A stretch of 64,000 nt of DNA from Hydrogenobacter thermophilus TK-6 (lineage in GTDB: Bacteria > Aquificota > Aquificia > Aquificales > Aquificaceae), in assembly GCF_000010785.1 (NCBI RefSeq), contig NC_013799.1:992001-1056000 (forward strand). Direction: 5' to 3'. Positions within the stretch are counted from its first letter, which is position 1, and each line of letters begins with the position of its first letter. Of the stretch, positions 28,618 to 63,337 are shown one piece after another. The notes beneath the pieces were generated by a model that worked only from the letters and a program-made list of their open reading frames with translations, made no database searches and had not been told where the DNA came from. The position numbers and the translations under genes were made by a program.

Positions 28618-28633
28618 TGCAAATTCTGTGCCA
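28618..28633 (-). promoter_or_regulatory. Sigma-54 promoter of the globin-PII-cynS-nitrate operon
   Basis: On the minus strand: TGGCACA, 4 bases, TTGCA, matching the -24/-12 consensus with GG and GC correctly spaced. It lies 24 bases before the globin ATG, so transcription would begin just before the ribosome site. Confidence 0.88.
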
Positions 28634-28793: not shown

Positions 28794-28809
28794 TGGCACG
28801 CTTGTTGCA
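28794..28809 (+). promoter_or_regulatory. Sigma-54 promoter of the nitrite reductase gene
   Basis: TGGCACG, 4 bases, TTGCA: a perfect -24/-12 element. The nitrite reductase ATG at 28833 is 24 bases downstream, with its ribosome site GGAGGT at 28821. Confidence 0.9.
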
Positions 28810-34082: not shown

Positions 34083-35478
34083 ATGAGCGGATGTCACTCA
34101 AAGCAATGTGGAGTTGGAAGTGATGAGTTATCTTTTTTACCAGAATCAGTGAGGAAAAAAGTGGAAAATCACCCATGTTATTCTCAAGAGGCACACTACT
34201 TTTATGCTAGAATGCATGTCGCAGTGGCTCCTGCATGTAATATACAATGTAACTATTGCAATAGAAAGTACGATTGCGCTAATGAATCAAGGCCAGGTGT
34301 TGTGAGCGAACTTTTGACCCCAGAAGAAGCTGCAAAGAAAGTTTTGGCAGTAGCCATGGAAATACCACAGATGACCGTTGTAGGTATCGCCGGACCTGGC
34401 GATCCTTTAGCAAATCCTGATAAAACATTTAAAACTTTTGAACTTATAAAAGAAAAGGCGCCGGATATAAAGTTGTGCCTTTCAACAAACGGTCTTAACC
34501 TACTTGACTATGTGGACAGGATAAAGGAATTGAATGTAGATCATGTAACTATAACTATAAACGCAATAAGCCCTGAAACTGCTTCCAAAATATACCCTTG
34601 GATTTTTTACAACCACAAAAGGTATAAAGGTATTGATGCTGCAAAAATACTTCTTGAGCGCCAGTATGAAGGGTTAAAAGCCTGTGTGGAAAGGAATATC
34701 CTCGTAAAGATAAACACCGTTTTTGTTCCCGAGATAAACGGAGAAGATATAGAAGAGTTATCCAAAAAAGTTAAAAATATGAGTGCCTTTCTTCACAACA
34801 TAATGCCCTATGTGGAAGGTGACGGAACCGCTTTTCAAAAGATGGGGATAAAACCTCCAACACCTTACCAGCTTAAAGAAATTCAGGAGAAGATCGAGAA
34901 CTATATGTCTCTTATGAGACACTGTAGGCAGTGCAGGGCGGACGCAGTAGGCCTTTTGGGTGAAGACAGAGGGCAGGAATTTACAAAGGATAAGATAAGT
35001 AAGTTTGAGATAAGATACGATCCAGAATTCAGGAAGGCTATACACGGGGAGATAGAAAAAGAGAGGGAAAAGGTGAGAAAGGCGAGGGAGATGCTCCGCT
35101 TTCAGGAAGAAGGCGATAAAAAAGTGCTCGTGGCAGTTGCAAGCAAGGGCAACATGCTGGTGAATGAACACTTTGGAACTGCGAAGGAATTTCTGATTTA
35201 CGACAAAAGGTATAAAGTTTATACATCACAGGAAAGTTACACCTTACTGTCACGGTTCTATATCCTGCCTTGATGGGGAGAATATACTTGAGGATACCAT
35301 ATCCAAAATTTCCGACTGTAAGGCAATAATTGCTGCCAAGATAGGGTTTGAGCCTAAGGATATCTTAGAACCAAGGGGTATACAATGTATCGATGAATTC
35401 GCATACTTACCCATACCGGAAGCTCTGGCAAGATATTACGAAAAGTACATAATGAAGAAGGAAGTAGTGGAGGCTTAA
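34083..35478 (+). pseudogene. nifB: nifB, FeMo-cofactor radical SAM synthase, interrupted by a frameshift
   Basis: NifB builds the NifB-co [8Fe-9S-C] precursor of FeMo-co. The radical SAM part is intact (CNIQCNYCNRKYDC, GIAGPGDPLANP). The C-terminal NifX-like domain starts normally (VNEHFGTAKEFLIYDKRY), but the frame then hits a stop at 35271-35273. Shifting by one base after 35220 restores HHRKVTPYCHG ... ISDCKAIIAAKIGFEP ... EALARYYEKY, ending at 35478, just before fdxN. The best repair adds a TA at the TATA run 35220-35223, giving YKVYIHHRKV. The truncated product would keep the SAM domain. NifB without the NifX-like domain is functional in some organisms, so activity could survive. Confidence 0.88.
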
Positions 35479-37203: not shown

Positions 37204-37219
37204 TGCAATATTTATGCCA
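37204..37219 (-). promoter_or_regulatory. Sigma-54 promoter of DUF683-fdxB-ferredoxin
   Basis: Minus strand TGGCATA, 4 bases, TTGCA: consensus -24/-12. It lies 24 bases before the DUF683 ATG. Confidence 0.86.
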
Positions 37220-37275: not shown

Positions 37276-38241
37276 GAGTTTGTTAGCCTTTTCCGAATAA
37301 AGACCAAAAGCTAAGGCAGCTTTTGAACCTACAACCTCAGGGTCAAAGGGTAGGTAAGTCCTTTTTGATTTTGTAAGACCATCTATATGTATGCTTGACT
37401 TGTTTGTGAAGGCATTCTTGCCTATCAGCGGTTTATTGGGTGCCAGATGGATGTTTGTCATGTCTATAAAATAGTTCACAATTTCGTACAATCTTTTTAC
37501 ATTTATGCCAGTGTGAACTCCTTGTATTAGCTGAAGGTAAAAGACTACTTCCTCAAGCGGGGTTATACCACACCTTTCACCCAAACCGAGCAAGGACGCG
37601 TTTATGTACTTAGCCCCCGAAAGGAAGGCGGTAATGGAGTTTGCCGTTGCCATACCAAAATCGTTGTGAAAGTGTACCTCCACGTCCAAAAAGGAGGAAG
37701 CGGTCTTTACTAGTTCGTTGGTCTGTAATGGGTTTAACACACCCACTGTGTCCGAAAGTCTTACTCTATCAGCACCTTCTTCTCTTATGCATTCAAGGAG
37801 CTTTATAACGAATTCTCTATCAGCACGAGAGACATCCTCAAAACCTACGGAAAGATAGAGTTTTTTGGACTTTACATAGGGAATTATTTCCTTTAGAAGC
37901 CTTACAATGTAGTCCCTGTCCTTATTTAGCTTTTCCTTTATCATGAAATCTGAAACAGGAATGGCAATCTCCAGTTTTTTAACGCTGCACTCTAAGGACG
38001 CTTCCACATCCCTTATGTTAGCCCTGTTCCAAACGATCACCTTATCACCATGCTGGCTTCTGGCAAGGTATTTTATATAATCCCTCTCTTCTTCGCTGTG
38101 AGCAGGAACGCCCACTTCCAGCTCGTGGATACCCGTTGAAGACAGTAAGAAGAAAAGCTCCTTTCTTTTTTCGTAGGTGAGTTCTAGCGAAGCTGACTGC
38201 ATACCTTTTCTTAGAGTAGTATCTGTGATAAAGACTCTCAT
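37264..38241 (-). CDS. nifV: Homocitrate synthase-like protein NifV, altered metal site
   Basis: DRE-TIM metallolyase of 325 residues related to NifV, which condenses acetyl-CoA and 2-oxoglutarate to homocitrate for FeMo-co. Supporting pieces are HELEVGVPAHSEEE, RLSDTVGVLNP, the metal-binding EVHFHNDFGMATANS and LGLGERCGITPLEEV. The N-terminal motif, normally DTTLRDGEQ, reads DTTLRKGMQ: the metal-ligand acid after the catalytic Arg is Lys, and Glu is Met. Activity is therefore doubtful unless the site has been rebuilt. It is also shorter than usual (about 380). It overlaps the nifS-like gene by 4 bases. Confidence 0.82.
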   Translation of the reverse strand: MRVFITDTTLRKGMQSASLELTYEKRKELFFLLSSTGIHELEVGVPAHSEEERDYIKYLARSQHGDKVIVWNRANIRDVEASLECSVKKLEIAIPVSDFMIKEKLNKDRDYIVRLLKEIIPYVKSKKLYLSVGFEDVSRADREFVIKLLECIREEGADRVRLSDTVGVLNPLQTNELVKTASSFLDVEVHFHNDFGMATANSITAFLSGAKYINASLLGLGERCGITPLEEVVFYLQLIQGVHTGINVKRLYEIVNYFIDMTNIHLAPNKPLIGKNAFTNKSSIHIDGLTKSKRTYLPFDPEVVGSKAALAFGLYSEKANKLCKK

Positions 38242-39332
38242 AGCGCACTCTCCACACTTGCAAGAATACTTTTCACAGCCCCTATAAAGGTTTTTATCTC
38301 CTTCAAAGAGGTAAAAGGTTGTATCCTAAAGGAAAGGATATCGTCAAAGCCCGTTTTGTGCTTTAGCCTGTCTTTTATCCTGTTTGCAATACAGGGGGAA
38401 GAATAGCCTAAGAAAAAGCCCTTCTTTTCCATAAAGGACATGATCATCTCCGCCTCAAGTCCATTAAGACCGAAGGAAAATAAACCTGGTGCCTTCCACC
38501 CCTTCTTAAAAATAGGTTGTGGAAAGATCATGCCTTCTACATAACCATCACAGGCAGTGATGTTTTCCTCTATAGCCCTCCGCCATTCGGAGAGGATTTT
38601 TATCGATTGGGACATGGCATATATTCCAAAGAGGTTTTCTTCCCCTGCCCTCAGTCCCCTCTCTTGGGTTCCACCCTCTATGATAGGCTTTAGCCTTATG
38701 CCTTTTTTAAGATAAAGGATCCCTACTCCCTGAGGTCCAAGGAGGGACGGTCCGTCAAAGCTTGCCATATCAAGAAGTTCTACATCTACCACCATATCTG
38801 GATAGTAAAGTCCCCAAAAGTCAAAGTGACAGAGTGTTTTTGGATTGGTTTCTTTTACTACCTTTACTATCCCTACTATGTCCCTGAGAGCTGCAGTTTC
38901 TCTGCACACTGCTCCCATAGTAACCATCAATGTATCTTCTTTCACATGCTCTCTTATCAGTTCTGGATCTATCCAGCCATATCTGTCAGTGGTAAGGTAT
39001 AGAACATTCAGGCCTTCCTTTTCTAAAGTTTTTAGGGGGTGAGTTATAGAGGGATGTTCGAAGTCGGTTGTTATTACGCTTCCCCTCTTACTGGAAAGAT
39101 ACCCTTTTATAGCAAGGTTGTTACTTTCTGTAGAGCTTGATGTAAACAAAACCTCCGAACTATTAATCCCCAGGAACTCCGCAACTGCTCCCCTCGATCT
39201 GACGAGTAATTCCTTTGATTTTGTTGAAAGTGCGTTTAAGCCCGAGGGGTTTACAAAAAAGTATAACAGAAACTGGGATAATTCCTCCATCACCTGGGGA
39301 AAGGGTTTTGAAGAATTGGGATCAAACATCAT
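38238..39332 (-). CDS. NifS-like protein lacking the PLP lysine
   Basis: A 364-residue class V aminotransferase-fold protein by overall match to NifS/IscS: SSTESNNLAIKG, TDFEHPSITHPLKTLEKEG and IIEGGTQERGLRAG. The lysine that binds PLP in cysteine desulfurases (SFSGHKIYGPKG in IscS) is absent: here SFDGPSLLGPQG, with His to Pro and Lys to Ser. The mobile-loop Cys is possibly kept (YSSPC). Sulfur-donor activity is thus unlikely by the normal mechanism. The N-terminus is also unlike IscS. The start at 39332 overlaps the end of the AOR gene. Confidence 0.82.
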   Translation of the reverse strand: MMFDPNSSKPFPQVMEELSQFLLYFFVNPSGLNALSTKSKELLVRSRGAVAEFLGINSSEVLFTSSSTESNNLAIKGYLSSKRGSVITTDFEHPSITHPLKTLEKEGLNVLYLTTDRYGWIDPELIREHVKEDTLMVTMGAVCRETAALRDIVGIVKVVKETNPKTLCHFDFWGLYYPDMVVDVELLDMASFDGPSLLGPQGVGILYLKKGIRLKPIIEGGTQERGLRAGEENLFGIYAMSQSIKILSEWRRAIEENITACDGYVEGMIFPQPIFKKGWKAPGLFSFGLNGLEAEMIMSFMEKKGFFLGYSSPCIANRIKDRLKHKTGFDDILSFRIQPFTSLKEIKTFIGAVKSILASVESAL

Positions 39333-41118
39333 AGACCAGCTCCCCCATAGAAAGTTTGATAAGTGTTTCTTTTTTTTGTTTACCATCTTTGTCCCAGCCA
39401 AAGGCTTCGTAAAATTCGTCAAGCATCTCATTCAGCTCTTCCTGGGTGGTTATGTATCCTCTTTCCGAAGCTTCCTTCTTTATTCTATTCGGTAGCGCAT
39501 CCTTCTCTCTGGTGAAGCCCTCCCTTACATTGAAAAGTCTTTCAAGTGTGTAGATTCTTTCTCCTATTCTGTATAGATCTTCCATCTGCAGTTCCCAATC
39601 CATGACTGCGTTTACCATTTCTAAAATCTTTTCATTGAGCTTTAGTCCTACGACCCTCTCTGCGCTAAGGCAGTATATTATGCTGTTTACCACACTCGTC
39701 CAAACGGCAAGGTCTTTGCTAATCTTCCCTTTATCCTTCGGGTTTGCAAACGGTATTATGTTGTTTTCTTCGATGCCAGGTCTTATATCGCAGTGAACGG
39801 GACCACGGTTAGAAACAGCATAACCCAAAGCCTGCGTTTTTACAGCCCTCGGCGAGTGTCCAGCTATCTCCATGCCCTTTACTGTCATAAGAAAGTCCCC
39901 ACCTACACCGAGTATTTGGCTAGCCCTTTCAGAACCCTCCGCTAGTATGTTTCCTATCCCCTCCCTAAAAGCTATCTTTTTGAGCAATCTTTTTACGTCA
40001 CGAGTGTTTCCAAAGCGAAGGTCAAGGCCGTCAAAGTCTTCCCTGTTTAAAATTCCCCTTTCATAACACTCCATAGCCCAAGCCACAACACCACCTGTCT
40101 GAATCTGTCCGAGTCCTAACTCGTCTGTTAACCTATCCAAGCTTATAAGTTCGTTCAAGTTTCCGTTTCCTATTAGAGTCCCCATAGCAAATATGCCCTC
40201 GTATTCAGGTCCAACAGTAAAAGTATCTTTACTTACAGAGTACTTGCCGCAGGGAACTATACATCCAAAGCAAGACACATCCTTTACCACCTTTTCTCTT
40301 AAAGCTTCGCCACTAATGTTTTTTGCAGGATCAAAGGTTTCCTTCTGCCAGTTATAAGATGGCAAAGCGCCGAGATATTGAAGATGCATAACACCCGCTG
40401 CTGTTCCAAACTTGATAAGGTTTTTGACGCCAGGATGTTCGTAAACCGACTTTTCAAAGGCTTTAACGAAGTTTATAAGTCTTTCCGGATTGAGAGGTCT
40501 TACCACTTTACTACCTCTGATGGTTATAGCCTTGACCTTCTTTGATCCAAGAACAGCCCCCATGCCTCCTGTGCCTACAGCTCTCAAATCTGATATAATA
40601 CAAGCATACCTGACAAGATTTTCACCCGCTGGACCTATAACAAGGGTTTTTATGTCTTCACCGAGCTTCTCTTTGAGTTTTTGTTGTGTTACACTCGTCA
40701 AAGATCCTCTTAAGTTTTCAGCATTTAATAAGTAAACCTTGTCATTTTCTATATGGATGTGTATCCACTCTTGAGAAGAGCCAACTATTATAAGCCCATC
40801 CCATCCTGCGAACTTTAGTTCCTGTCCAAACTCTCCACCACAAAATCCTTTTGTAAAACCATCTGTTTGAGGTGATTTAGAAACAACGCAGAATTTGGAA
40901 GCCATAGGGACGAGGGTACCATTTGCAGGACCCGTATTTATAATTAAGGGGTTCTCTCCGGATAGTGGGTCAACACTTTCTTTGCACAATTTATACAAAA
41001 GATAAGCACCTATACCGTTTCCCCCCAAGTATTTTCTTACAATGTCCTCGTTTACATGATAAGCATCCCATTTCCTCTCCGTAAGGTTTATAAAAAGGTA
41101 CTTTCCCCACCAACTCAT
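39322..41118 (-). CDS. Aldehyde:ferredoxin oxidoreductase (tungsten AOR family)
   Basis: A 598-residue AOR with its N-terminal pterin-binding domain (LFINLTERKWD, NPLIINTGPANGT, KGFCGGEFGQELKFAGWD). The [4Fe-4S] cysteines are CFGCIVPC (C-x2-C-x3-C) and the distant Cys in IIYCLSAE. It oxidises aldehydes to acids and reduces ferredoxin, or the reverse, with a tungsten-bis-pterin. It lies in an operon of moaD-like, ferredoxin, AOR, nifS-like and nifV genes with a sigma-54 promoter, so it seems to be made under nitrogen-fixing conditions. Ferredoxin reduction for nitrogenase is an attractive inference. Confidence 0.92.
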   Translation of the reverse strand: MSWWGKYLFINLTERKWDAYHVNEDIVRKYLGGNGIGAYLLYKLCKESVDPLSGENPLIINTGPANGTLVPMASKFCVVSKSPQTDGFTKGFCGGEFGQELKFAGWDGLIIVGSSQEWIHIHIENDKVYLLNAENLRGSLTSVTQQKLKEKLGEDIKTLVIGPAGENLVRYACIISDLRAVGTGGMGAVLGSKKVKAITIRGSKVVRPLNPERLINFVKAFEKSVYEHPGVKNLIKFGTAAGVMHLQYLGALPSYNWQKETFDPAKNISGEALREKVVKDVSCFGCIVPCGKYSVSKDTFTVGPEYEGIFAMGTLIGNGNLNELISLDRLTDELGLGQIQTGGVVAWAMECYERGILNREDFDGLDLRFGNTRDVKRLLKKIAFREGIGNILAEGSERASQILGVGGDFLMTVKGMEIAGHSPRAVKTQALGYAVSNRGPVHCDIRPGIEENNIIPFANPKDKGKISKDLAVWTSVVNSIIYCLSAERVVGLKLNEKILEMVNAVMDWELQMEDLYRIGERIYTLERLFNVREGFTREKDALPNRIKKEASERGYITTQEELNEMLDEFYEAFGWDKDGKQKKETLIKLSMGELVYDV

Positions 41119-43438: not shown

Positions 43439-43454
43439 TGGCACGGTTTTTGCA
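43439..43454 (+). promoter_or_regulatory. Sigma-54 promoter of nifHDK
   Basis: TGGCACG, 4 bases, TTGCA: a perfect -24/-12 element, 37 bases before the nifH ATG, which has a GGAGG site at 43480. Confidence 0.92.
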
Positions 43455-43467
43455 GAAAATAGGTTAG

Positions 43468-44331
<864 letters not shown>

Positions 44332-44342
44332 GGAGGTTTATC

Positions 44343-45786
44343 ATGGGTATAGTTGTAGACAAGGAGACAGCCTTAAAGTTAGTGGAAGAGATACTCAGTC
44401 ATTATCCAGCAAAGGCAAGGAAAGATAGAGCAAAACACATTGCTGTGGCTGATCCCGGAGAGGAAGGGTGTGTTCCTAAGTCCAACGTAAAGACAAGACC
44501 TGGGGTGATGACTATAAGAGGATGCGCTTATGCAGGCTCCAAGGGTGTTGTTTGGGGTCCTGTGAAGGACATGATACACATATCCCACGGTCCCGTTGGC
44601 TGCGGATATTACTCAAGAGCTGGAAGGAGAAACTACTACATAGGAACCACGGGAGTTGATACCTTTGTAACTCCCCACTTTACTACTGACTTTCAGGAGA
44701 GAGATATAGTCTTTGGCGGTGACAAAAAACTTGAGAAAGCTATATACGAGCTAAATCAGCTCTTCCCTCTAAACAAGGGCATAACGATACAATCCGAATG
44801 TCCCATAGGTTTGATAGGGGATGACATTGAGGCAGTTGCAAGAAAGACATCGAAGGAGATAGGTAAGGTAGTTGTACCAGTGAGATGTGAAGGCTTCAGA
44901 GGGGTTTCTCAGTCTCTTGGTCACCACATAGCTAATGACTCTATGAGAGACTGGATTTACGAAAAGGGTGTAAAAGGGAAGGATATAGAACCAAGTCCAT
45001 ACGATGTCGCCATATGGGGAGATTATAACATAGGTGGCGATGCGTGGGCTTCAAGGAAAATCTTAGAAGCTATGGGACTTAGGGTTGTTACTCAGTGGTC
45101 GGGGGATGGAACGCTTAGCGAGGTGGCAAATGCCGTGAGAGCTAAGTACATACTGGTTCACTGCTACAGGTCTTCTAATTACTTGGCAAGATACTTTGAA
45201 GAAAAGTTTGGTATTCCTTGGATAGAATATAACTTCTTCGGACCCACACATTGCATCTATGAGAAAGATAGCCAAGCTCTTTGATGAGAGAGTGCAGGAA
45301 AGGACAGAAGAGCTCATAGAGAAAGTTTACAAACCGAGACTGGACAAAGTTATAGAAAAGTACAGGCCGAGGCTTGAGGGCAAAACGGTGCTTCTTTATG
45401 TAGGCGGTTTAAGACCGAGGCATATAATTACCGCCTTTGAGGACCTGGGCATGAACGTGGTAGCTACAGGATACGAGTTTGCCCACCAAGATGACTATCA
45501 GAGGACACTTCACTACATAGACAGAAACACTACCATAATAGTAGACGATGCTACCGCTTACGAGATAGAAGAGCTTACCAGAAAGCTAAGACCCGATCTG
45601 GTAGCCTCGGGTATAAAGGAAAAGTATCAAGCACAGAAGATGGGTGTACCCTTCAGGCAGATGCACAGTTGGGATTACAGCGGACCATATCATGGCATAG
45701 AGGGTTTTGAAATATTCGCAAGGGATGTGGATATGGCGATAAATGGTAACGTGTGGAAGTTTTTAAAGGCTCCTTGGGAACAGTAA
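44343..45786 (+). pseudogene. nifD: nifD, MoFe protein alpha chain, interrupted by a 2-base frameshift
   Basis: NifD holds half the P-cluster and FeMo-co. The first frame (313 codons, to 45284) has the P-cluster cysteines in [15 protein letters not shown] and [11 protein letters not shown] and the FeMo-co Cys in [12 protein letters not shown]. After EYNFFGPT the frame goes wrong. From 45247 the +1 frame gives [14 protein letters not shown], continuing to the FeMo-co His in [14 protein letters not shown] and the end at 45786. Adding one AC to the ACACA run at 45246-45250 restores [12 protein letters not shown], as in other NifD proteins. Without repair, no FeMo-co binding MoFe protein is possible. 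The second part has no ribosome site of its own. Confidence 0.93.
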
Positions 45787-45802: not shown

Positions 45803-46555
45803 ATGGGTATACATCATGAGCTGAACATAAAGGATCATCTTGAGTGCTTCAGGAATGATGAATTTAAGGAAATGATACAGAATAAAAGGAAAAACTTCGA
45901 GAACTGGGTAGGTGAAGAGAAGGTCAGAGAGGTAGCAGAATGGACAAAAAGCTGGGAATATAGGGAGCTGAACTTCAAGAGGGAAGCTATATCTATAAAT
46001 CCCGCTAAGGCATGTCAGCCTCTTGGGGCACTCCTCTGTGCCCTTGGCTTTGAAAAAACCTTGCCCTTTTCTCATGGTTCACAGGGATGTGTGGCATACT
46101 TCAGGACACATATGGCGAGACACTTTAAGGAACCCATACCTATGGTATCCACATCTATGACGGAGGATGCTGCTGTGTTTGGAGGTCAGAACAACCTGCA
46201 TGAAGGACTTCAGAATGCCATAGCCCTGTACAAACCAAAGATGATAGCAGTAAACACAACCTGTATGGCTGAGGTGATAGGGGATGATCTAAACAGCTTT
46301 ATAAATAATGCAAAAGAGAAAGGGTTAATACCTGTGGACTTTCCTATACCTTTTGCCCATACACCTTCCTTCGTTGGTTCTCATATTACCGGGTATGACA
46401 ACCAGATGAAGGGCATTCTTCAGTACATGACTGAGTACTTTGAGAAGTATGGCGTAGACAATGTAGATAAGTATGACCCAGATGAGGGTGAGTTTTACGA
46501 GCAAGGCGGGCTTTTAACATGGCTTAAACAGAACAGTTCAAAAGGAGGTGAGTAA
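45803..46555 (+). CDS. nifK: NifK N-terminal half (MoFe protein beta chain, split gene)
   Basis: First 250 residues of the beta chain: the P-cluster cysteines are in [22 protein letters not shown] and [12 protein letters not shown], followed by [15 protein letters not shown]. Standard NifK then runs straight into its second domain. Here there is instead a ~30-residue acidic tail ([12 protein letters not shown] and on) ending KGGE-stop. The frame of the second half starts 1 base later. AGGAGG before the ATG at 45803 is normal. The pair is either a true gene fission or a frameshift in a linker. Confidence 0.88.
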
Positions 46556-46556
46556 A

Positions 46557-47444
46557 ATGGGTGTCTTGAACTTTATATTGGGTTTTCATACATACCTGGA
46601 TGACTATAAAGAAGTCAAAAGGATAGTGAGCGAGTTTGGAGAAGACTGCATTATTCTCTCCGACCCATCAGAAAATCTTGACTCTGGGCTAAAAGGAGAA
46701 TACAACCTTTACAACGGTGGTACTTCACTAAAGGATATATACAAAGCCAAATTGTCCCTTGCTACTATTGCCTTCCAAAAGTATTCTACAGAAAAAACGA
46801 GAGAGTATATAGAAAAGGTTTGGAAACACCCCACCTATGTAGTTAGACCTTACGGAGTACAAGGAACGGACGAGTTTTTACAGCTTATCTCAAACCTAAC
46901 AGAGAAACCTATACCAGAAAGTCTAATTAAAGAAAGACAAAAGCTCCTTGATGCCATGGCAGACTCTTACTACTGGATACACGGTAAAAGGTTCGCTCTA
47001 TGGGGAGATCCGGACTTTGTTTACGGAATAACATCCTTCTTGCTAGAGCTTGGAGCGGAACCAGCTCACATTCTCTGCACCAACGGAAACGAAGAATGGG
47101 CAGAAGAGATAAAAGAATTATGTTCTAAGTTTGACAACGGAAAGTATGCTCAGATTTTTCCCGGTAAAGACCTTTGGCATATGAGAAGCCTTCTCTTTAC
47201 TGAACCAGTGGACTACATGATAGGCACCTCTTATGGAAAGTTTCTTTGGAGAGATACAGGAACACCTCTCATAAGGATAGGATATCCAATATTTGACCGA
47301 CACCATCTTCACAGGTATGGAATACTCTTTTACAGAGGAGCCTTAAACTTATTAGTGTGGATAGTTAACACCATCTTAGATGAGATAGATAGAAAAACCA
47401 TACATATAGCAGAAACTGACTATAGCTTTGATCTTATAAGGTGA
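46557..47444 (+). CDS. nifK: NifK C-terminal half (split gene)
   Basis: A 295-residue second part of the beta chain: FILGFHTYLDDYKEVKR, ALWGDPDFVYGITSFLLELG, HILCTNGNEEW, IGTSYGKFLWRD and IGYPIFDRHHLHRYG. It begins precisely at the NifK domain boundary (usual GKINIIPGF). An ideal ribosome site AGGAGGTGAG lies 6 bases before the ATG, overlapping the end of the first half (TAA-A-ATG). That arrangement is like the other gene junctions here and suggests independent translation. Confidence 0.87.
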   Translation: MGVLNFILGFHTYLDDYKEVKRIVSEFGEDCIILSDPSENLDSGLKGEYNLYNGGTSLKDIYKAKLSLATIAFQKYSTEKTREYIEKVWKHPTYVVRPYGVQGTDEFLQLISNLTEKPIPESLIKERQKLLDAMADSYYWIHGKRFALWGDPDFVYGITSFLLELGAEPAHILCTNGNEEWAEEIKELCSKFDNGKYAQIFPGKDLWHMRSLLFTEPVDYMIGTSYGKFLWRDTGTPLIRIGYPIFDRHHLHRYGILFYRGALNLLVWIVNTILDEIDRKTIHIAETDYSFDLIR

Positions 47445-47448
47445 TGTC

Positions 47449-48026
47449 ATGGATGCCTTGGAGAAGCTAAGAAGGTATCTACCTGCAGGTTATGTAGAGG
47501 AACGCAAGTATAGTGCAAAAGAAAATATACTACCAAGTAAGTTTTGCGGGGAGGGCCTTTGCATAATCTCTAATGGAGTTGCGGAACTTTGCATAAAAAG
47601 TAAAGTTTCTAAGAGAACCCTTGATATTATGCTTCCGGGCGATATCTTTGGCTTTATGTCTGATATCAGCCTTATGAAAAATTTTACAGTCATTGCTCTC
47701 ACAAGCGTTAGCTTGTTTTATGTTAATATGGACAACTTAAAAGGCTCGGAAACGAAAATCCTATCCTCGTTCTTGACATCTTTTCTTTAGCTCTATCAAA
47801 ACAGGCTTACCTATATGAGGTTTTGGCAACTTTACGTAAACCCAAAGCTAAAGACAGGATAAGGAGTTTTCTGAGTTTGTTAGCGAAGATTGTCGAAGAG
47901 AAGAAAACAAATCTCATAATAAAGAGGAAACAAATAGCAGGTATAACGGGGCTTAGCTACGAGAATGTAGTAAGGACAATGAGTAGGATACAAAAACAAG
48001 AAAGCAGGAGGGTCAGGCTATGGTAG
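47449..48026 (+). pseudogene. Crp/Fnr-family regulator, frameshifted
   Basis: The first frame (47449-47790) is a cyclic-nucleotide-type sensor domain (SNGVAELCIKSK, LPGDIFGFMSDIS) without the cAMP-binding arginine motif or Fnr cysteines at its start. It stops at 47788. The frame shifted by one base continues as LALSKQAYLYEVLATLRKPKAKDRI and an HTH (KQIAGITGLSYENVVRTMSRI), ending at 48026 without the usual wing. One T added to the TTTT run 47781-47784 joins them. It lies inside the nif operon; the target is unknown. The last 7 bases overlap the DUF269 gene. Confidence 0.8.
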
Positions 48027-48478
48027 TTGATGAAAGGACAGCAGAAGAGTTTATGAAGGAAGTGGTAAATCAAGTAAGAGCTTACGACACATACGGCACT
48101 TGGGAAAAAAGGGGCGACGAGGACCTGCTCAAGGAGTTCTTGAAGGGGGAAACGAACAAGCCTGCATCTTTTAACTTCGGCGGGCACTGTGCAGTTGACC
48201 CAAAGGCGATGCTAAAGATATATGCCTACTTCAAGGCTTTAGGGGTTGTTATAGAAAGACGTTCTAACATCCTGACCTCTACGGTCATAAACATGGACGA
48301 TGAGGGAAACGGCAATGTTATAGTCTACTCGGGAAGGCTTGTCCTTGTAAATAAGACCATAAGAGATGCAAATAGGTTTGGCTTTAAGTCCCTTGAGGAT
48401 ATGGCAAAGCAGGGGTTGAAGATGATAGAAAAGGCTACGCAGCTGCTTGAAAAGTACGAAGAGGTAGCAAGGCTATGA
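48020..48478 (+). CDS. NifX-associated protein (DUF269)
   Basis: A 152-residue DUF269 protein: LVNQVRAYD-type start (EVVNQVRAYDTYGTWEKR), the acidic middle, and GRLVLVNKTIRDANRFGFKS with LEDMAKQGLKMIEKA. DUF269 proteins accompany nifX/nifN in many diazotrophs and are thought to help move FeMo-co precursors. It overlaps the DegT-like gene by 4 bases. An AGGAGGGTCAGGCT site precedes its ATG. Confidence 0.88.
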   Translation: MVVDERTAEEFMKEVVNQVRAYDTYGTWEKRGDEDLLKEFLKGETNKPASFNFGGHCAVDPKAMLKIYAYFKALGVVIERRSNILTSTVINMDDEGNGNVIVYSGRLVLVNKTIRDANRFGFKSLEDMAKQGLKMIEKATQLLEKYEEVARL

Positions 48479-49536
48479 TGATCCCTTTTAAACCTTATGG
48501 ATATTCTAAGGAAGAGATGGCATCCGCTGTGGAGGCTATGAGCCATCCATACTTCTTTTCTGGACTTATAAGGCGTGAGCTTGAGGACTTTTTCTGTCAA
48601 AAAACTGGTAGAAGATACGCTTTAGCGGTAAAAGAGTTTATAACGCCCTTGCTAGAAGTGCTTGACTATATAGGGATAGGTAAGGGTTCAAAGGTCGTGC
48701 TTTCTCCTCTTTCTTACTTTAAACATTTCTCACCATACCTCAGGATTGCTGGATATGAACCTACTTACGCTGATGTAGAAAGATGGTTTCTCAATTTGGA
48801 TGTAAAAAGGATGCCACAAGTACTGACTGAGGATATGAAGGTTCTTATCGTAAACAACTCTTTGGGCATTCCGGCCGATTGGGATGCAATAATGAAGCTT
48901 ATAAAAGATAGAATCTTAATAGAGGATTCAAGGGAAACCATTTTCACAGAGTACAAGGGGAAACCAGCAGGCTCCTTTGGATACATATCTTTACTCGGCT
49001 TTTCTGATAGCTCAATAATAACCGGACATGGAGGAATTATCCTGACTGATGATAAACTTCTTTACCACAGGTTAAGAGAAAATGTGGAGCTTATGGACGA
49101 TATAACATCTGCGTTAATCTTATCGCAGACTAAACACTTAGATGAAAAATTAAAAATAAGGAGCGAATTAGCAGGTTTGTATTCTCAACTCCTCATAAAT
49201 ATAGAAGGTCTTAAGCCACAGTTCCATCCCAAGTATGTCTCAAAAATGTGTTGGTCCTACTTTTGTATCCATCTTGGGAAAAGATATGCTGACAATGCAA
49301 GAGAGTTAATAAGAGAACTTCTCGCTGACGATGGAATAGAGGTTAGAGAGTATCCCATATCTCAGGACATAATAGAAGGTAGAAAAATTTCTTATCTCCA
49401 CATAGCTCACGAAGTTGGAACGCGTGCTCTCCTTCTGCCTATTCATGAAGATATTACGGACGAAGATGTTTACTTTGTGTGTGAGAGATTAAAGGAGCAT
49501 GTCGTACAAGTTGGTGCCGGTAGTATAGACCATTAG
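48475..49536 (+). CDS. DegT/DnrJ-type aminotransferase-fold protein without the PLP lysine
   Basis: A 353-residue protein with the fold I layout of sugar aminotransferases: IPFKPYGYSKEEM, GSKVVLSPLSYF, IPADWDAIMKLIKDRILIEDS and YKGKPAGSFGYIS. The usual Schiff-base segment (SF..TK..TTGEGG) reads FSDSSIITGHGGII, so the lysine is Ser and the Glu is His. Transamination is therefore unlikely. It lies between DUF269 and nifE in the nif operon, so it may bind a cofactor or act as a scaffold in FeMo-co work; this is inference. Confidence 0.8.
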   Translation: MMIPFKPYGYSKEEMASAVEAMSHPYFFSGLIRRELEDFFCQKTGRRYALAVKEFITPLLEVLDYIGIGKGSKVVLSPLSYFKHFSPYLRIAGYEPTYADVERWFLNLDVKRMPQVLTEDMKVLIVNNSLGIPADWDAIMKLIKDRILIEDSRETIFTEYKGKPAGSFGYISLLGFSDSSIITGHGGIILTDDKLLYHRLRENVELMDDITSALILSQTKHLDEKLKIRSELAGLYSQLLINIEGLKPQFHPKYVSKMCWSYFCIHLGKRYADNARELIRELLADDGIEVREYPISQDIIEGRKISYLHIAHEVGTRALLLPIHEDITDEDVYFVCERLKEHVVQVGAGSIDH

Positions 49537-49546
49537 GAGGTAAAAC

Positions 49547-50902
49547 ATGAGAAACTTAGAAGATTTTTTCTTGGAGCCTGGGTGTAGCCACAACGGAGAG
49601 AAGACAGAGAAGGAGAGAAAGAAAGGTTGCTCTAAACCTCAACCTGGAAGCGCTTCCGGTGGCTGTGCTTTTGATGGTGCACAAATAACATTGCTCCCTA
49701 TAGCGGATGCTGTCCATATAGTTCACGGTCCCATTGCGTGCGCTGGAAATTCTTGGGACAACAGAGGTACGCGCTCTTCATCATCCGATTATTATAGGAT
49801 GGGTTTTACAACAGATCTAAATGAAATTAACGTTATATATGGAGGTGAAGAAAAGCTGCTGGATGCTATAAAAGAAGCTGCAGATAAGTATAAACCGCCT
49901 GCCGTGTTTGTGTATCAGACCTGTGTTCCCGCCATGATAGGGGATGACATAGTAAGCGTATGTAAAAGGGCCTCGGAAGAACTTGGATTACCTGTTATTC
50001 CTGTGGATTCACCGGGCTTTGCAGGAAGTAAAAATTTGGGCAACAAGTTGGCTGGTGATGCTCTATTTAGATATGTTATAGGCACAAGAGAGCCAAAGTA
50101 CACTACACCTTATGATATTAATCTCTTAGGTGAGTATAACATAGCAGGGGAATTGTGGCAGATTATGCCCTTGTTCCAAGAACTCGGCATTAGGGTGCTT
50201 GCCTGTATAAGTGGGGATGCTAAGTATGAGGATGTGGCAGCTGCACACAGAGCTAAGGTAAATATGGTTGTATGTTCAAAAGCTCTTCTTAGCCTTGCGA
50301 GGAAAATGGAAGAAAAATATGGCATACCTTACTTTGAAGGTTCTTTTTATGGAATAAAGAATACTAGCGAGGCGCTAAGAAACTTTGCAAAACTCTTAGG
50401 CAGCGAAGAATTAATAGAAAAAACTGAGAAATTAATAGCAAAGAAGGAAGAGGAGACAAGACAGAAACTTAAACCTTATATAGAAAAACTCAAAGGCAAG
50501 AAGGTTCTCATAAATACGGGTGGTGTAAAGAGTTGGTCTATGGTTTCTCAGGTGCAAGAACTTGGGATGGTAGTTGTTGGAACAAGTTCTAAAAAAAGCA
50601 CTAAAGAAGACAAAGAAAGAATGTTTAAGTTGTTAGGGGATGATGGGAAACTAATAGATGATCCTAACCCAAAGGAGCTTGTTAAACTTTGCAGAGAGCA
50701 TAAGGTAGATGTGCTTATGGCAGGTGGTAGGAGTAAATTTGTTGCTATTAAAGAAGGTATTCCTTTCCTTGATACAAATCAAGAGAGGATAAAACCTTAT
50801 GCAGGATATGATGGTATGATTGTTTTGGCTCAAGAACTTGTTAGAACCATATACAGCCCTGTATTTGATCTGTACAAGGAGCCTCCACCATGGCAGTATT
50901 AA
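49547..50902 (+). CDS. nifE: FeMo-cofactor scaffold protein NifE
   Basis: A 451-residue NifE: GCAFDGAQITLLPIADAVHI, GPIACAGNSWDNRGTRSS, YQTCVPAMIGDDI and INTGGVKSWSMVSQ. NifEN is a NifDK-like scaffold on which NifB-co matures into FeMo-co. The Cys residues for its permanent clusters are present, and the frame is complete. An AGGAGGTAAAAC site precedes the ATG. The end overlaps nifN by 13 bases. Confidence 0.95.
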   Translation: MRNLEDFFLEPGCSHNGEKTEKERKKGCSKPQPGSASGGCAFDGAQITLLPIADAVHIVHGPIACAGNSWDNRGTRSSSSDYYRMGFTTDLNEINVIYGGEEKLLDAIKEAADKYKPPAVFVYQTCVPAMIGDDIVSVCKRASEELGLPVIPVDSPGFAGSKNLGNKLAGDALFRYVIGTREPKYTTPYDINLLGEYNIAGELWQIMPLFQELGIRVLACISGDAKYEDVAAAHRAKVNMVVCSKALLSLARKMEEKYGIPYFEGSFYGIKNTSEALRNFAKLLGSEELIEKTEKLIAKKEEETRQKLKPYIEKLKGKKVLINTGGVKSWSMVSQVQELGMVVVGTSSKKSTKEDKERMFKLLGDDGKLIDDPNPKELVKLCREHKVDVLMAGGRSKFVAIKEGIPFLDTNQERIKPYAGYDGMIVLAQELVRTIYSPVFDLYKEPPPWQY

Positions 50903-52233
50903 GGAAATCAAACAAAGCGTGCTCGGTCTATCCTTTAAAGCTCAGCCAACCACTTGGTGCTGTTTACTTTTTCTTAGGTATTAAGGGCTCTATACCCTTA
51001 ATGCATGGTTCACAAGGATGCGCAGCTTTTGCAAAGACCTTTCTCACAAGAAATTTTTCAGAAAACATCCCTATGCAAACAACTGCCCTATCCGAAATAG
51101 CAACTGTCATGGGAGGAGATGACAATTTGCATATAGCCCTTAAAAACATAATAGAAAGATACAATCCTGAACTTATTGGTATAGTATCAACTGGAGTGAG
51201 TGAAACAAAAGGGGATGACGTAGAAGGTTCAATAAAGAGATTTAAGGAACTTTATCCAGATTATGTTTACAAAAAGCTTATTTATGTTTCCACACCGGAT
51301 TACGAGGGTTCTTTTCATGATGGATACAAAAAGGCTATACTATCTACAGTAAAAACCCTCGTAAGAAGAGCGTACAGCAAAAAAACTAAACGGATAAATG
51401 TGCTTTTAAGTTACTCTCTTACAGCAAAGGATGTGGATACAATAAAGGAAGTCATAGAAAGCTTTGGGTTAAAACCCATTATACTTCCAAATTTTTCCTC
51501 TTCCTTAGATGGAGGTTCTAAAGGCTTTTCCAGTATAACAGCTGGTGGGACGGATGTTGAAGAAATAGAGTTTATGTCCGCATCAGCAATCACTATAACT
51601 GTAGGAGAAAGTACAAAAGAAGCTGGAGAGTACTTAGAAAGTAAATTTATGATTCCCGCATTTTACTTTGAAAGCCTATACGGTCTTAAGAACTTTGATA
51701 GATTTATAAGGCTTTTGATGAATCTAAGTGGGGAAGAACCTGACGAAAAGCTAAAAAAATGGAGAAGCAGACTGCTTGATGCTATGCTGGACTCTCATTT
51801 TTACCTAACTGGCAAGAAGATAGCAATTGCCGCAGAACCTGACACTTTGTACGGAATTTCTGATTTTTTAGTAAGAGAGATTGGTATGGAGGTTTCGTTA
51901 GCCGTTGCATCAACATATGCGGAGTATTTAAAACAACTACCTTTTGATGAGATCATTATAGGTGACCTTGAAGATATGCTTTTATTAAAAGAGGGAAAGT
52001 GTGTGGATATAGCAATAGGCAACACTAATATGAGGCATATAGCAAAAAAACTTAAAGTACCTCATTACAGAATGGGCATCCCTGTGTTTGATAGGTTAGG
52101 GCACTTTTTAAAAGGCTTTGTAGGATACGAAGGAAGCATTAATTTGGTGTTTGATCTTGCAAACTTACTTATGGGAAGGGATGAGGAAGAGTCTTACAAA
52201 ATTCCAGAGCATATAACAAGGAGGTCAACATGA
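50890..52233 (+). CDS. nifN: FeMo-cofactor scaffold protein NifN
   Basis: A 447-residue NifN: CSVYPLKLSQPLGAVYFFLG, LMHGSQGCAAFAKTF, GIVSTGVSETKGDD, IAAEPDTLYGISDFL and GIPVFDRLGHFLKGFVGYEG. It partners NifE in the scaffold. It is complete, and starts inside nifE at an ATG near GGAGCCTCC. The fusion form with NifB seen in some organisms is not present. It overlaps nifX by 4 bases. Confidence 0.94.
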   Translation: MAVLRKSNKACSVYPLKLSQPLGAVYFFLGIKGSIPLMHGSQGCAAFAKTFLTRNFSENIPMQTTALSEIATVMGGDDNLHIALKNIIERYNPELIGIVSTGVSETKGDDVEGSIKRFKELYPDYVYKKLIYVSTPDYEGSFHDGYKKAILSTVKTLVRRAYSKKTKRINVLLSYSLTAKDVDTIKEVIESFGLKPIILPNFSSSLDGGSKGFSSITAGGTDVEEIEFMSASAITITVGESTKEAGEYLESKFMIPAFYFESLYGLKNFDRFIRLLMNLSGEEPDEKLKKWRSRLLDAMLDSHFYLTGKKIAIAAEPDTLYGISDFLVREIGMEVSLAVASTYAEYLKQLPFDEIIIGDLEDMLLLKEGKCVDIAIGNTNMRHIAKKLKVPHYRMGIPVFDRLGHFLKGFVGYEGSINLVFDLANLLMGRDEEESYKIPEHITRRST

Positions 52234-52604
52234 AGGTGGCTTTTGCTACAAAGAGTCTTGATAAAATTGACGATCACTTTGGGCATGCAAAAACTATGGC
52301 TATTTACGAGGTAGATGAAACGGGTTACAAATTCATAGAATACAGACACTTTGAAGATATCCCTGATGAGGAATATGATAAAATAGCTTACAAGGTTGAA
52401 GGGATAAAAGACTGTACTATTGTATATGTAATCGCCATAGGTGCCACAGCAGCTGCAAGAATAGTAAAGGCAAGAATACATCCCGTAAAAGTAAATGAAC
52501 CAACACCTATAGAAGAAATGCTTGAGAAGTTGGTGGATACACTAAACACAAATCCACCACCGTGGCTAAGGAAGGCTCTTACAGATAGTAAAGAGAAGAT
52601 CTAA
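52230..52604 (+). CDS. nifX: FeMo-cofactor carrier NifX
   Basis: A 124-residue NifX: KVAFATKSLDKIDDHFGHAK and the IEYRHFED segment, then AIGATAAARIVKARIHPVKV. It carries NifB-co or VK-cluster between NifB and NifEN. It overlaps nifN by 4 bases and the convergent LolA-like gene by 4 bases. It is the last gene of the nifH operon. Confidence 0.92.
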   Translation: MKVAFATKSLDKIDDHFGHAKTMAIYEVDETGYKFIEYRHFEDIPDEEYDKIAYKVEGIKDCTIVYVIAIGATAAARIVKARIHPVKVNEPTPIEEMLEKLVDTLNTNPPPWLRKALTDSKEKI

Positions 52605-61641: not shown

Positions 61642-62160
61642 ATGCCTGTTTGCTACATTTCCTTTGGAAGCAATTGGGGAGATAGAGTGCAGAACATACT
61701 AAAAGCTATCTCTTTAGTGGCAAATTTGGGAAATCTGGAGGCTGTATCCACTGTATATGAGAGTCTGCCATGGGGTATAGAAAACCAGCCACCTTTCTTA
61801 AATGGCGTTCTAAAGTTAAATACCAACCTTGGGCCTATAAGACTTCTGAAGGAGCTAAAGGAGATAGAAAGGTACATAGGAAGAAAGGAACGCTACAGAT
61901 GGGGTCCCAGAGAGATTGATTTGGATATTTTACTTTACGATGGCTATATTTTAATGCTCAGTTTTTTAAGGATACCCCATCCGTATATGCTGGAGAGGGA
62001 CTTTGTACTTTTCCCTCTCCTTGAGCTGGACGAAAACCTCATTCACCCCACTTTAGGACAGCCCATAAAGCTCTTTGCCCAAAGTCTTAAAAACAACCTC
62101 AAACCCTACGCCTGTATCACTTCTTACTTTTTACATACTGCTCCCAATTCTCGGGTGTAA
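61642..62160 (+). CDS. folK: Hydroxymethyldihydropterin pyrophosphokinase
   Basis: FolK transfers pyrophosphate from ATP to 6-hydroxymethyl-7,8-dihydropterin in folate synthesis. It is 172 residues from the ATG at 61642 (a GTG at 61627 would add five). Marks: CYISFGSNWGDRVQNILKAI, VYESLPWG, PPFLNGVLKL, ERYRWGPREIDLDILLYDG and RIPHPYMLERDFVLFPLLEL. The 3' end overlaps the nifS-like gene on the other strand by 44 bases. Confidence 0.94.
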   Translation: MPVCYISFGSNWGDRVQNILKAISLVANLGNLEAVSTVYESLPWGIENQPPFLNGVLKLNTNLGPIRLLKELKEIERYIGRKERYRWGPREIDLDILLYDGYILMLSFLRIPHPYMLERDFVLFPLLELDENLIHPTLGQPIKLFAQSLKNNLKPYACITSYFLHTAPNSRV

Positions 62161-63337
62161 AGGGTGAGATCTGTCTAAGAAGCTTTATAATCTTGGGAAA
62201 TTCTTCTATTACATAGTCCACATCCTCTTCCGTATTGTCCCTGCCAAAGCTAAAAACCAGCGATCCGTTGGCTACCTCCTTTGGCACACCTACTGCAAAA
62301 AGTACATGCGATTGCTTGAGTGCCAAAGAGACGCAAGCGGAACCTGAAGCGGTTTCTATACCCATAAGGTCAAGTCTTAAAAGCATAGCCTCGCCTTCAA
62401 TCAAATGCACTATCAGAGATAGGTGATGTGGAAGCCTTTGAGTTGGATGTCCCGTAAATTCAATGTAATCAAGCCTTTCTTCAAGAGCTTTTCTTAACTT
62501 ATCCCTGTAATGGGAAAGTCTTGTCATCCTATCCTGGAGTTCCTTCATGGTTAGCTCTGCGGCGGCACCAAAGCCTACTATACCTGGTACGTTTTCCGTA
62601 CCGGCCCTTACACCTCTTTCCTGCGTACCACCTTCTATTAAGGGTCTTATTTTCACTCCCTTTCTTGTCCACAGAGCACCCACGCCCTTGGGTCCATACA
62701 TGAGGTGTGCGGTAAAAGATGCAGCATCCACACCCCAGTCCTTTACATCTACAGGATAATGTCCGAGCGTTGGTGCGGCATCCGTATGGAATATAACTTT
62801 GGGATTCTTAGACTTTGCTGCCTGAACAAGACTCTTTATATCCTGAACAGTGCCTATCTCTCTGTTGGAGTGGCCTATACTCACAAGGACTGTGTCTGTC
62901 CTTACTGCCTCGCTTACCTGATCCGGATGTATGAGACCGTATCTATCTGGCTTTAGGTAGGTAACTTCCCAGCCCTTTCTCTCTAAGGTTTTTAGAGGGT
63001 GCAAAACTGAGTGGTGCTCTATCTCGGTGGATACTATGTGTCTGCCCTTCTTTTCGTAAGCTTCCGCTATTCCCTTTATTGCCAAGTTGTTGGCTTCTAT
63101 ACCACCCGAGGTGAAAACTATTTCTTCAGGGCTATTGGCATTTATGAGCGTTGCTATCTTTTCCCTCGCAGAGTTTATAGCTTTTTTGGTGACCTGACCA
63201 AAGCTGTGAAGGGATGTGGGATTTCCAAAATGCTCTCTAAAGTAAGGAAGCATAGCCTCCAGAACTTCCTGTGCAACAGGTGTGGTAGCAATGTGGTCAA
63301 GATAAACTACCCTCTGACCTACCTTTTTTATAAACAT
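62117..63337 (-). CDS. NifS/IscS-like protein lacking the PLP lysine
   Basis: A 406-residue cysteine-desulfurase homologue: VVYLDHIATTPVAQEV, SGGIEANNLAIKGIA, IEHHSVLHPLKTLERKG and the C-terminal GSACVSLAL with the reactive-loop Cys. The PLP lysine is absent: where IscS has SFSGHKIYGPKG, this has SFTAHLMYGPKG, with Lys to Leu; HVDATQ reads HTDAAP. So the normal reaction seems ruled out, although the Cys and the substrate-binding parts (IEGGTQERGVRAGTEN) are intact. The gene next to it encodes an Mrp Fe-S carrier, which supports a role in Fe-S work, such as sulfur binding or a cluster scaffold. Confidence 0.85.
   Translation of the reverse strand: MFIKKVGQRVVYLDHIATTPVAQEVLEAMLPYFREHFGNPTSLHSFGQVTKKAINSAREKIATLINANSPEEIVFTSGGIEANNLAIKGIAEAYEKKGRHIVSTEIEHHSVLHPLKTLERKGWEVTYLKPDRYGLIHPDQVSEAVRTDTVLVSIGHSNREIGTVQDIKSLVQAAKSKNPKVIFHTDAAPTLGHYPVDVKDWGVDAASFTAHLMYGPKGVGALWTRKGVKIRPLIEGGTQERGVRAGTENVPGIVGFGAAAELTMKELQDRMTRLSHYRDKLRKALEERLDYIEFTGHPTQRLPHHLSLIVHLIEGEAMLLRLDLMGIETASGSACVSLALKQSHVLFAVGVPKEVANGSLVFSFGRDNTEEDVDYVIEEFPKIIKLLRQISPFTPENWEQYVKSKK

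Follow-up and report, generated by a model that had tools for sequence, protein, structure and literature searches.

Enzymes of the DegT family carry PLP on a Schiff-base lysine located in an FxxxK loop, while the serine of their FSF motif lies at the PLP phosphate and the aspartate of their ED motif contacts the pyridine nitrogen. ColD-type dehydratases depart from this scheme: PMP is held non-covalently and a histidine is used instead of the lysine, and ColD keeps its PMP. Two enzymes of this fold, GDP-perosamine synthase (PerA; PDB 3bn1 and 3dr4) and ArnB (1mdo), resemble the protein described here over almost its whole length, and share with it the ED motif and the glycine pattern of the active-site loop. 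It differs from them in that identity is 24-27%, that the lysine, the phosphate-site serine and an Asn/Lys residue of the phosphate loop are lost, and that a C-terminal GAG tail has been added. ColD itself (GDP-4-keto-6-deoxymannose-3-dehydratase; 3b8x and 2gms, whose titles name H188) is similar in having a DegT fold without an active-site lysine; however, it has a histidine according to these titles, whereas our protein family has no conserved residue at this place and a changed phosphate site.

The list of proteins that build nitrogenase is still open, a question that matters for the transfer of nitrogen fixation to new hosts. NifZ, NifW, NafY/NifX and NifT are nif-linked, non-universal proteins that are presumed or shown to help maturation. 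The protein described here resembles them in being nif-linked and not universal, and to our knowledge none of them has a DegT fold. Among the literature matches listed, the accessible portions hold no discussion of a nif-linked DegT protein or of its missing lysine, the only trace being the table entry 'DegT aminotransferase' for BRADO5411 of Bradyrhizobium ORS278, in the nitrogen-fixation part (PMC3899966). According to the accessible part of that source, BRADO5411 belongs to the nitrogen-fixation genes of Nod-independent Bradyrhizobium and lies between a 2Fe-2S ferredoxin gene and a NifZ-domain gene, and its neighbours BRADO5414, 5416, 5418 and 5424 form an operon common to Azorhizobium and absent in B. 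japonicum USDA110 (PMC3899966). This gene order resembles that of the Pseudomonadota loci presented below, a likeness of listings and not of sequences (PMC3899966).

We analysed a stretch of 64,000 bases (the window) of the 1,743,135-base genome of Hydrogenobacter thermophilus TK-6, and describe a gene, termed nif-DegT, that lies in its nif operon. With a probability of roughly two in three, we consider its product to be a DegT-fold pseudoenzyme whose binding of a ligand or partner aids nitrogenase maturation. If so, it would be an overlooked maturation factor common to hot-spring Aquificota and to free-living and nodule Pseudomonadota. A nif-locked, conserved and dead-looking aminotransferase fold is in any case a concrete and easily testable candidate, and it puts in doubt the 'aminotransferase' annotation that conceals nif-DegT in nif clusters.

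The gene, its operon and its fold

The nif-DegT gene (48475-49536, + strand) is an intact ORF of 353 codons with an ATG start. Its first 4 bases overlap the end of the gene for a DUF269 / NifX-associated protein (48020-48478, +), and nifE (49547-50902, +; TIGR01283, 646 bits) follows it after a gap of 10 bases, so that the position of nif-DegT between DUF269 and nifE, as given in the first-pass annotation, agrees with both the ORF coordinates and the family matches of the neighbours. Further genes of the same consecutive, single-strand series, which runs from nifH (43474) to nifX (52604), are nifD (44343-45786, +; two reading frames in the window sequence), nifK (45803-47444, +; two overlapping ORFs), nifN (50890-52233, +) and nifX (52230-52604, +). 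The first gene of this apparent operon, nifH (43474-44331, +), was named by its own sequence and not by a family search. An exact match to the sigma54 -24/-12 pattern (43439-43454, +) stops 19 bases short of the nifH ORF as listed. When up to one mismatch is allowed, this consensus pattern matches the window 11 times, where 2.03 matches would be expected, and 4 of the 11 are exact. Most likely, nif-DegT is co-expressed with the nitrogenase genes. The other exact matches are a divergent pair (28618-28633, -, and 28794-28809, +), lying by eye between globin-like and nitrite-reductase-like genes, and a match at 37204-37219 (-), which precedes a Rop-like gene of the nif cluster.

The only Pfam family recognized in the protein is DegT_DnrJ_EryC1 (PF01041; 130.9 bits, E 8.8e-38, above the gathering score of 19.8). 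Neither the window protein (best score 107.6 of the 423.5 bits required) nor its Methylococcus relative (best 221.7 of 423.5 bits) reaches an NCBIfam cut-off for the sugar transaminases of the PseC, ArnB, LegC type, WecE or DesI families, and our Pfam and NCBIfam searches returned no named family that separates the nif-DegT clade from DegT transaminases. An AlphaFold2 model built with 13 members as input (pLDDT 90.5, pTM 0.89; weaker in the tail, with a mean pLDDT of 79 for residues 341-350 and below 50 for residues 351-353) is closest in Foldseek to the metagenomic sugar transaminase 7b0m and to GDP-perosamine synthase, with ArnB nearby (TM 0.85-0.89). Ranking by Z places GDP-perosamine synthase 3dr4 on top (41.2, rmsd 2.0, 341 residues), and ArnB 1mdo scores 39.8, with an rmsd of 2.0-2.2 over 340-341 residues in the two comparisons. 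The DegT-type aminotransferase fold proposed from the initial reading is thus supported by the PF01041 match, and the predicted structure and its PDB matches agree with fold type I and DegT topology.

An active site with lost PLP anchors and new fixed residues

Most of the canonical DegT proteins examined have an active-site loop of the form F-x-P-x-K-H-I-T-T-G-E-G-G. The HMMER alignment to GDP-perosamine synthase places Ser180 of the window protein (codon 49012-49014, +; FSDSSIITGHGG) in the lysine column, as first noticed from the sequence. The loop, F176-S-D-S-S180-I-I-T-G, is one residue shorter than the canonical one, a feature common to the window protein and the three nearest Aquificota members; its register is therefore uncertain by one residue, and both options, Ser179 and Ser180, leave the window protein without a Schiff-base lysine. 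We rejected an alignment slip as the cause, as several alignments agree and only the residues of genomes G028 and G050 shift with the gap: G028 shows a lysine in one alignment, at the first of two candidate places, and a serine in the others, while G050 shows Asn or Ser depending on the alignment. In one member, from G030, the column itself is occupied by a lysine (FDFNKVLTTG).

We compared the site in 16 nif-linked members and 49 other DegT homologues (27 from Aquificota and 22 from Pseudomonadota), the latter being non-nif matches with returned loci, of which three (L064, L116 and L117) had their surroundings inspected. The lysine is present in 1/16 nif-linked members versus 49/49 of the others, a loss that is not due to chance. 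When all 27 members that cover the site are read (5 Aquificota and 22 Pseudomonadota, including locus L158, which is cut by a contig end), the lysine is clearly absent in 25, and the column holds S in 11, G in 8, A in 3, K in 2, and N, L and Q in one each; the two K are those of G030 and of the gap-dependent G028, and the N is that of G050, likewise gap-dependent. No residue is conserved there, so none has replaced the lysine; histidine, the ColD-type solution, occurs in 0/27.

The losses extend to the residues that anchor the phosphate. The phosphate-site serine of the FSF motif is found in none of the 16 nif-linked members and in all 49 others; 12 of the 16 have Asp, and the window protein has Gly. 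The same opposition (0/16 versus 49/49) holds for the Asn/Lys of the phosphate loop, whose column is a gap in four nif-linked members. The SGT motif is better preserved, with its serine in 10/16 nif-linked members against 45/49 others and its threonine in 9/16 against 48/49, so that the phosphate site is not fully erased in Pseudomonadota members.

Other positions are kept, or have been gained. The ED aspartate (D151), the residue facing the pyridine nitrogen, is present in 16/16 nif-linked members and 49/49 others, and E154 is fixed among the nif-linked proteins. Seven residues (W104, N128, W136, H266, R270, G347 and A348) occur in all 16 nif-linked members and in none of the 49 others, and four more (R46, E244, K247 and G349) are nearly nif-specific, with frequencies of 2-8% elsewhere (2% for G349). 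Of the 27 members, 25 have Trp at position 104 and the other two have Tyr. The C-terminal GAG motif (Gly347-Ala348-Gly349; codons 49513-49521, +, in the window) is found in all 26 members that reach that far, each of its residues being present in 0-2% of the 49 other DegTs. The window protein shows every mark of the clade: a place in a nif cluster, W104, N128, W136, H266, R270 and GAG.

Distribution, ancestry and possible role

The genomes sampled for this survey presumably belong to Aquificota and Pseudomonadota, the latter label being taken from the Pelagibacter locus L010. At E <= 1e-25, nif-DegT is found in 5 of 136 Aquificota genomes. Each of the five has its copy in a nif cluster and belongs to the 8 genomes with nifE at E <= 1e-100, of which 7 pass the cut-off. 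The gene adjoins nifE in 5/5 carriers, with DUF269 directly on its other side in three; an unmatched 157-aa ORF lies between DUF269 and nif-DegT in G035, and DUF269 is elsewhere in the cluster in G030. Three Aquificota genomes (G077, G123 and G126) have nifE and no nif-DegT at E <= 1e-25 genome-wide, nor any DegT match in the stretches around nifE (on one side only in G126, where the contig ends). Among 397 evenly drawn Pseudomonadota genomes, 8 carry the gene at E < 1e-100, the next best match being at 1.5e-63, and all 8 belong to the 45 with nifE over the cut-off. Co-occurrence with nifE has a P value of 1.6e-7 in Aquificota and a hypergeometric P value of 1.5e-8 in Pseudomonadota, both computed on the simplifying, incorrect assumption that the genomes are independent.

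All 8 Pseudomonadota copies lie inside nif clusters, with nifZ and nifB on the upstream side; six have nifT just upstream and a SIR2_2 gene downstream, while in L109 and L112 nifT and SIR2_2 are found beyond nifB. The usual neighbours in Pseudomonadota are nifZ, nifT, NifS, SIR2_2 and a 2Fe-2S protein, and not nifEN. A class-wide draw gave 14/377 genomes at E <= 1e-75, three of them already seen, and the 11 new members all have nifT within 1.5 kb. Using the G030 protein as query, we matched 864 plasmid records, and each of the four examined (from Paraburkholderia aromaticivorans, P. sprentiae, Methylococcus sp. EFPC2 and Bradyrhizobium sp. BWA-3-5) has its copy in a nif cluster; that of BWA-3-5 is frame-broken, with Leu at the lysine place. 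A contig scan with the window protein alone matched only two Pelagibacter DegTs, at 26%. Altogether, the 27 members read at the site and the frame-broken 28th are either part of a nif cluster or no more than 1.5 kb away from nif genes. This supports the proposed link to nif, and the check suggested in the first-pass annotation, to look for the gene in nif clusters of other bacteria, found it there in both groups sampled, Aquificota and Pseudomonadota. Since 5/8 Aquificota and 8/45 Pseudomonadota nifE genomes carry it, nif-DegT is no general requirement and is better seen as accessory.

The 8 Pseudomonadota carriers also all have a nif-type SIR2_2 gene (E <= 1e-60) and LRV. Among the 45 nifE genomes, SIR2_2 is present in 15 (E <= 1e-60), including 7 non-carriers, and LRV in 13 (E <= 1e-15), including 5 non-carriers. 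This is a nested pattern, and no proof of a functional pair. The SIR2_2-domain protein itself (PF13289; L067 16773-17615 and relatives) has no NCBIfam match and is found inside several of the nif clusters examined.

In a tree built from the 16 nif members together with 36 of the 49 other DegTs, a branch with support 100/99 sets the nif members apart from the rest, and within them Aquificota (99/98) and Pseudomonadota (100/98) form separate groups; a tree restricted to Aquificota, with 5 nif rows and 27 others, is consistent with this. The lysine-bearing G030 protein forms a long branch and has an odd composition. As its lysine is nested within the clade, two losses elsewhere, or one loss followed by a re-gain, are equally short histories. 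The phosphate-site Asp, common to G030 and most Pseudomonadota members, is probably older, as is the C-terminal GAG, common to all members. The dN/dS of nif-DegT is 0.11 between two Paraburkholderia, and rises to 0.16 and 0.20 in two more divergent Pseudomonadota pairs (the pair of the window and G028, saturated at dS 3, was left out); for the same Paraburkholderia pair, nifB gives 0.095, nifV 0.093 and nifH 0.037. These values support the conservation of nif-DegT under selection.

Taken together, the nif link, the loss of the PLP apparatus and the action of selection are best read as a shift from catalysis to binding. The absence of the Schiff-base lysine would in itself be compatible with PLP binding; as the phosphate anchors (the phosphate-site Ser and the Asn/Lys of the loop) are also lost, the protein is unlikely to bind PLP and, judging from these residues, would not carry out transamination. 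Selection would have retained the pocket floor (E150-D151, E154 and N128) and the family-specific R46, W104, W136, K247, H266, R270 and GAG tail; the strict conservation of this floor and of the new residues suggests that the site still binds or contacts something. Acting as an accessory maturation factor, nif-DegT may bind a ligand or client through its rebuilt pocket or a putative dimer surface, its tail docking on a Nif partner while the MoFe protein or its cofactor is assembled. The first-pass annotation had proposed a binding or scaffold role in FeMo-co assembly. The change from catalysis to binding is the part that our data favour; the FeMo-co step is not. The adjacency to nifE in Aquificota does suggest work on FeMo-co, but the proximity to nifZ and nifT in Pseudomonadota suggests work on MoFe or the P-cluster, and since the usual neighbours there are not nifEN, P-cluster or general MoFe maturation fits as well as FeMo-co. 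A more specific version, which we consider doubtful, is that the emptied PLP pocket binds a nitrogenase-specific ligand or precursor (e.g. an organic acid or a metal-organic intermediate), that the GAG tail hands this client over to NifEN or NifDK, and that its annotation as an aminotransferase let this factor be overlooked.

The pseudoenzyme reading has to be weighed against several alternatives, beginning with a PLP or PMP enzyme that works without the lysine, as ColD-type dehydratases do. The invariant pocket Asp, which a pure scaffold does not need, counts in its favour and against ours: the ring-nitrogen Asp is kept in 16/16 members, E154 does not vary, and Pseudomonadota members retain parts of the SGT motif. 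The fold can also hold the cofactor without lysine, as the PDB entries for ColD His188 variants and for PLP-bound K-to-A mutants (4oca, 3nys) indicate by their titles. We nonetheless regard such an enzyme as unlikely, because the lysine place has no conserved residue, the phosphate-site Ser is never retained and has become Asp in 12/16, and the phosphate-loop Asn/Lys is missing from all 16, its column being gapped in four. A PLP-binding member of the clade may exist in G030, although this protein, too, lacks the phosphate-site Ser. Lysine-bearing homologues outside nif clusters, which the earlier annotation had named as evidence against its proposal, are trivially supplied by the outgroup DegTs, whereas the lysine-bearing G030 protein sits in a nif cluster. 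Pairing with an active enzyme as its silent subunit, for instance in a regulatory role beside NifS or another DegT protein, has a precedent in a hetero-oligomeric DegT-fold enzyme (8y96, by its title), and a NifS-like gene does occur a few genes upstream in 5/8 Pseudomonadota clusters and in two plasmid records. Literature matches listed for such a hetero-oligomeric precedent offered nothing of use. However, each of the 8 Pseudomonadota stretches has just one DegT match, L110 and L112 have no NifS match in the stretch examined, and the NifS-like protein of the Aquificota cluster itself has no lysine; such a partnership therefore appears quite improbable.

A sugar-biosynthesis enzyme found in nif clusters by accident, for example one making a surface polysaccharide for diazotrophic growth, would account for the fact that the nearest named models are sugar transaminases. 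But every NCBIfam cut-off is far out of reach, the cofactor residues are lost, the four plasmid stretches have no annotated sugar-pathway gene and nifE is present in 13/13 carriers of the Aquificota and Pseudomonadota samples, which leaves very little room for this explanation. Decay of a functionless gene in a broken nif cluster is scarcely credible: nifD, the nifB 3' end and a Crp-like gene are indeed in pieces in the window and whole in the relatives examined, the BWA-3-5 relative is frame-broken and L158 is truncated at the edge of its contig, but the nif-DegT ORF is intact, is also found in four other Aquificota and 22 Pseudomonadota, and has a dN/dS of 0.11-0.20 in pairs with unsaturated dS. 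Decay limited to the window is ruled out by the intact relatives and the low dN/dS. We thus retain a DegT-fold pseudoenzyme as the preferred reading.

Other PLP-fold proteins and broken genes of the window

Two more PLP-fold proteins without the lysine had been noticed in the window, and both hold up. One is NifS-like (38238-39431, -), the second such protein of the nif cluster, and has no lysine in 5/5 Aquificota carriers, whereas the lysine is retained in three NifS-like proteins from nif clusters of Pseudomonadota. The other is IscS-like (62117-63337, -), with Leu at the PLP lysine place (SFTAHLMYGPKG) and the GSAC cysteine kept. Its letters were matched in 29 of the 30 loci L159-L188, all of family f1; in six further IscS loci, one of f1 has the same letters, four of f2 read GHYFYAPKG and L192 has no pattern match. 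An IscS without the lysine thus seems common in families f1 and f2.

Several genes of the nif region are interrupted. In the window, nifD (44343-45786) changes frame near 45260, and the nifB 3' end (34083-35273) and the Crp-like gene (47449-48026) are broken; all three are whole in the relatives examined, and their state reflects either strain decay or an assembly error. The accessible parts of two reports state that TK-6 does not use N2 (PMC6307999, PMC3111988), which fits the broken nifD and nifB. The accessible part of one of them also gives counts of MoFe-type genes that differ between the strain's two assemblies (4 versus 2; PMC3111988), so that an assembly error is possible. The nifK gene is divided between two overlapping ORFs in G000, G028, G035 and G050, with the break at a similar position in each, and is a single ORF in G030, G077 and G123; as the split position recurs across relatives, this is apparently a real gene fission. 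The nifE of G077 (L031 10181-11544) is also in two ORFs, of 107 and 322 aa. Finally, an aldehyde ferredoxin oxidoreductase gene (39322-41118, -) lies near nifV and the NifS-like gene, and G028, G035, G050, G030 and G077 have homologues in their own nif clusters.
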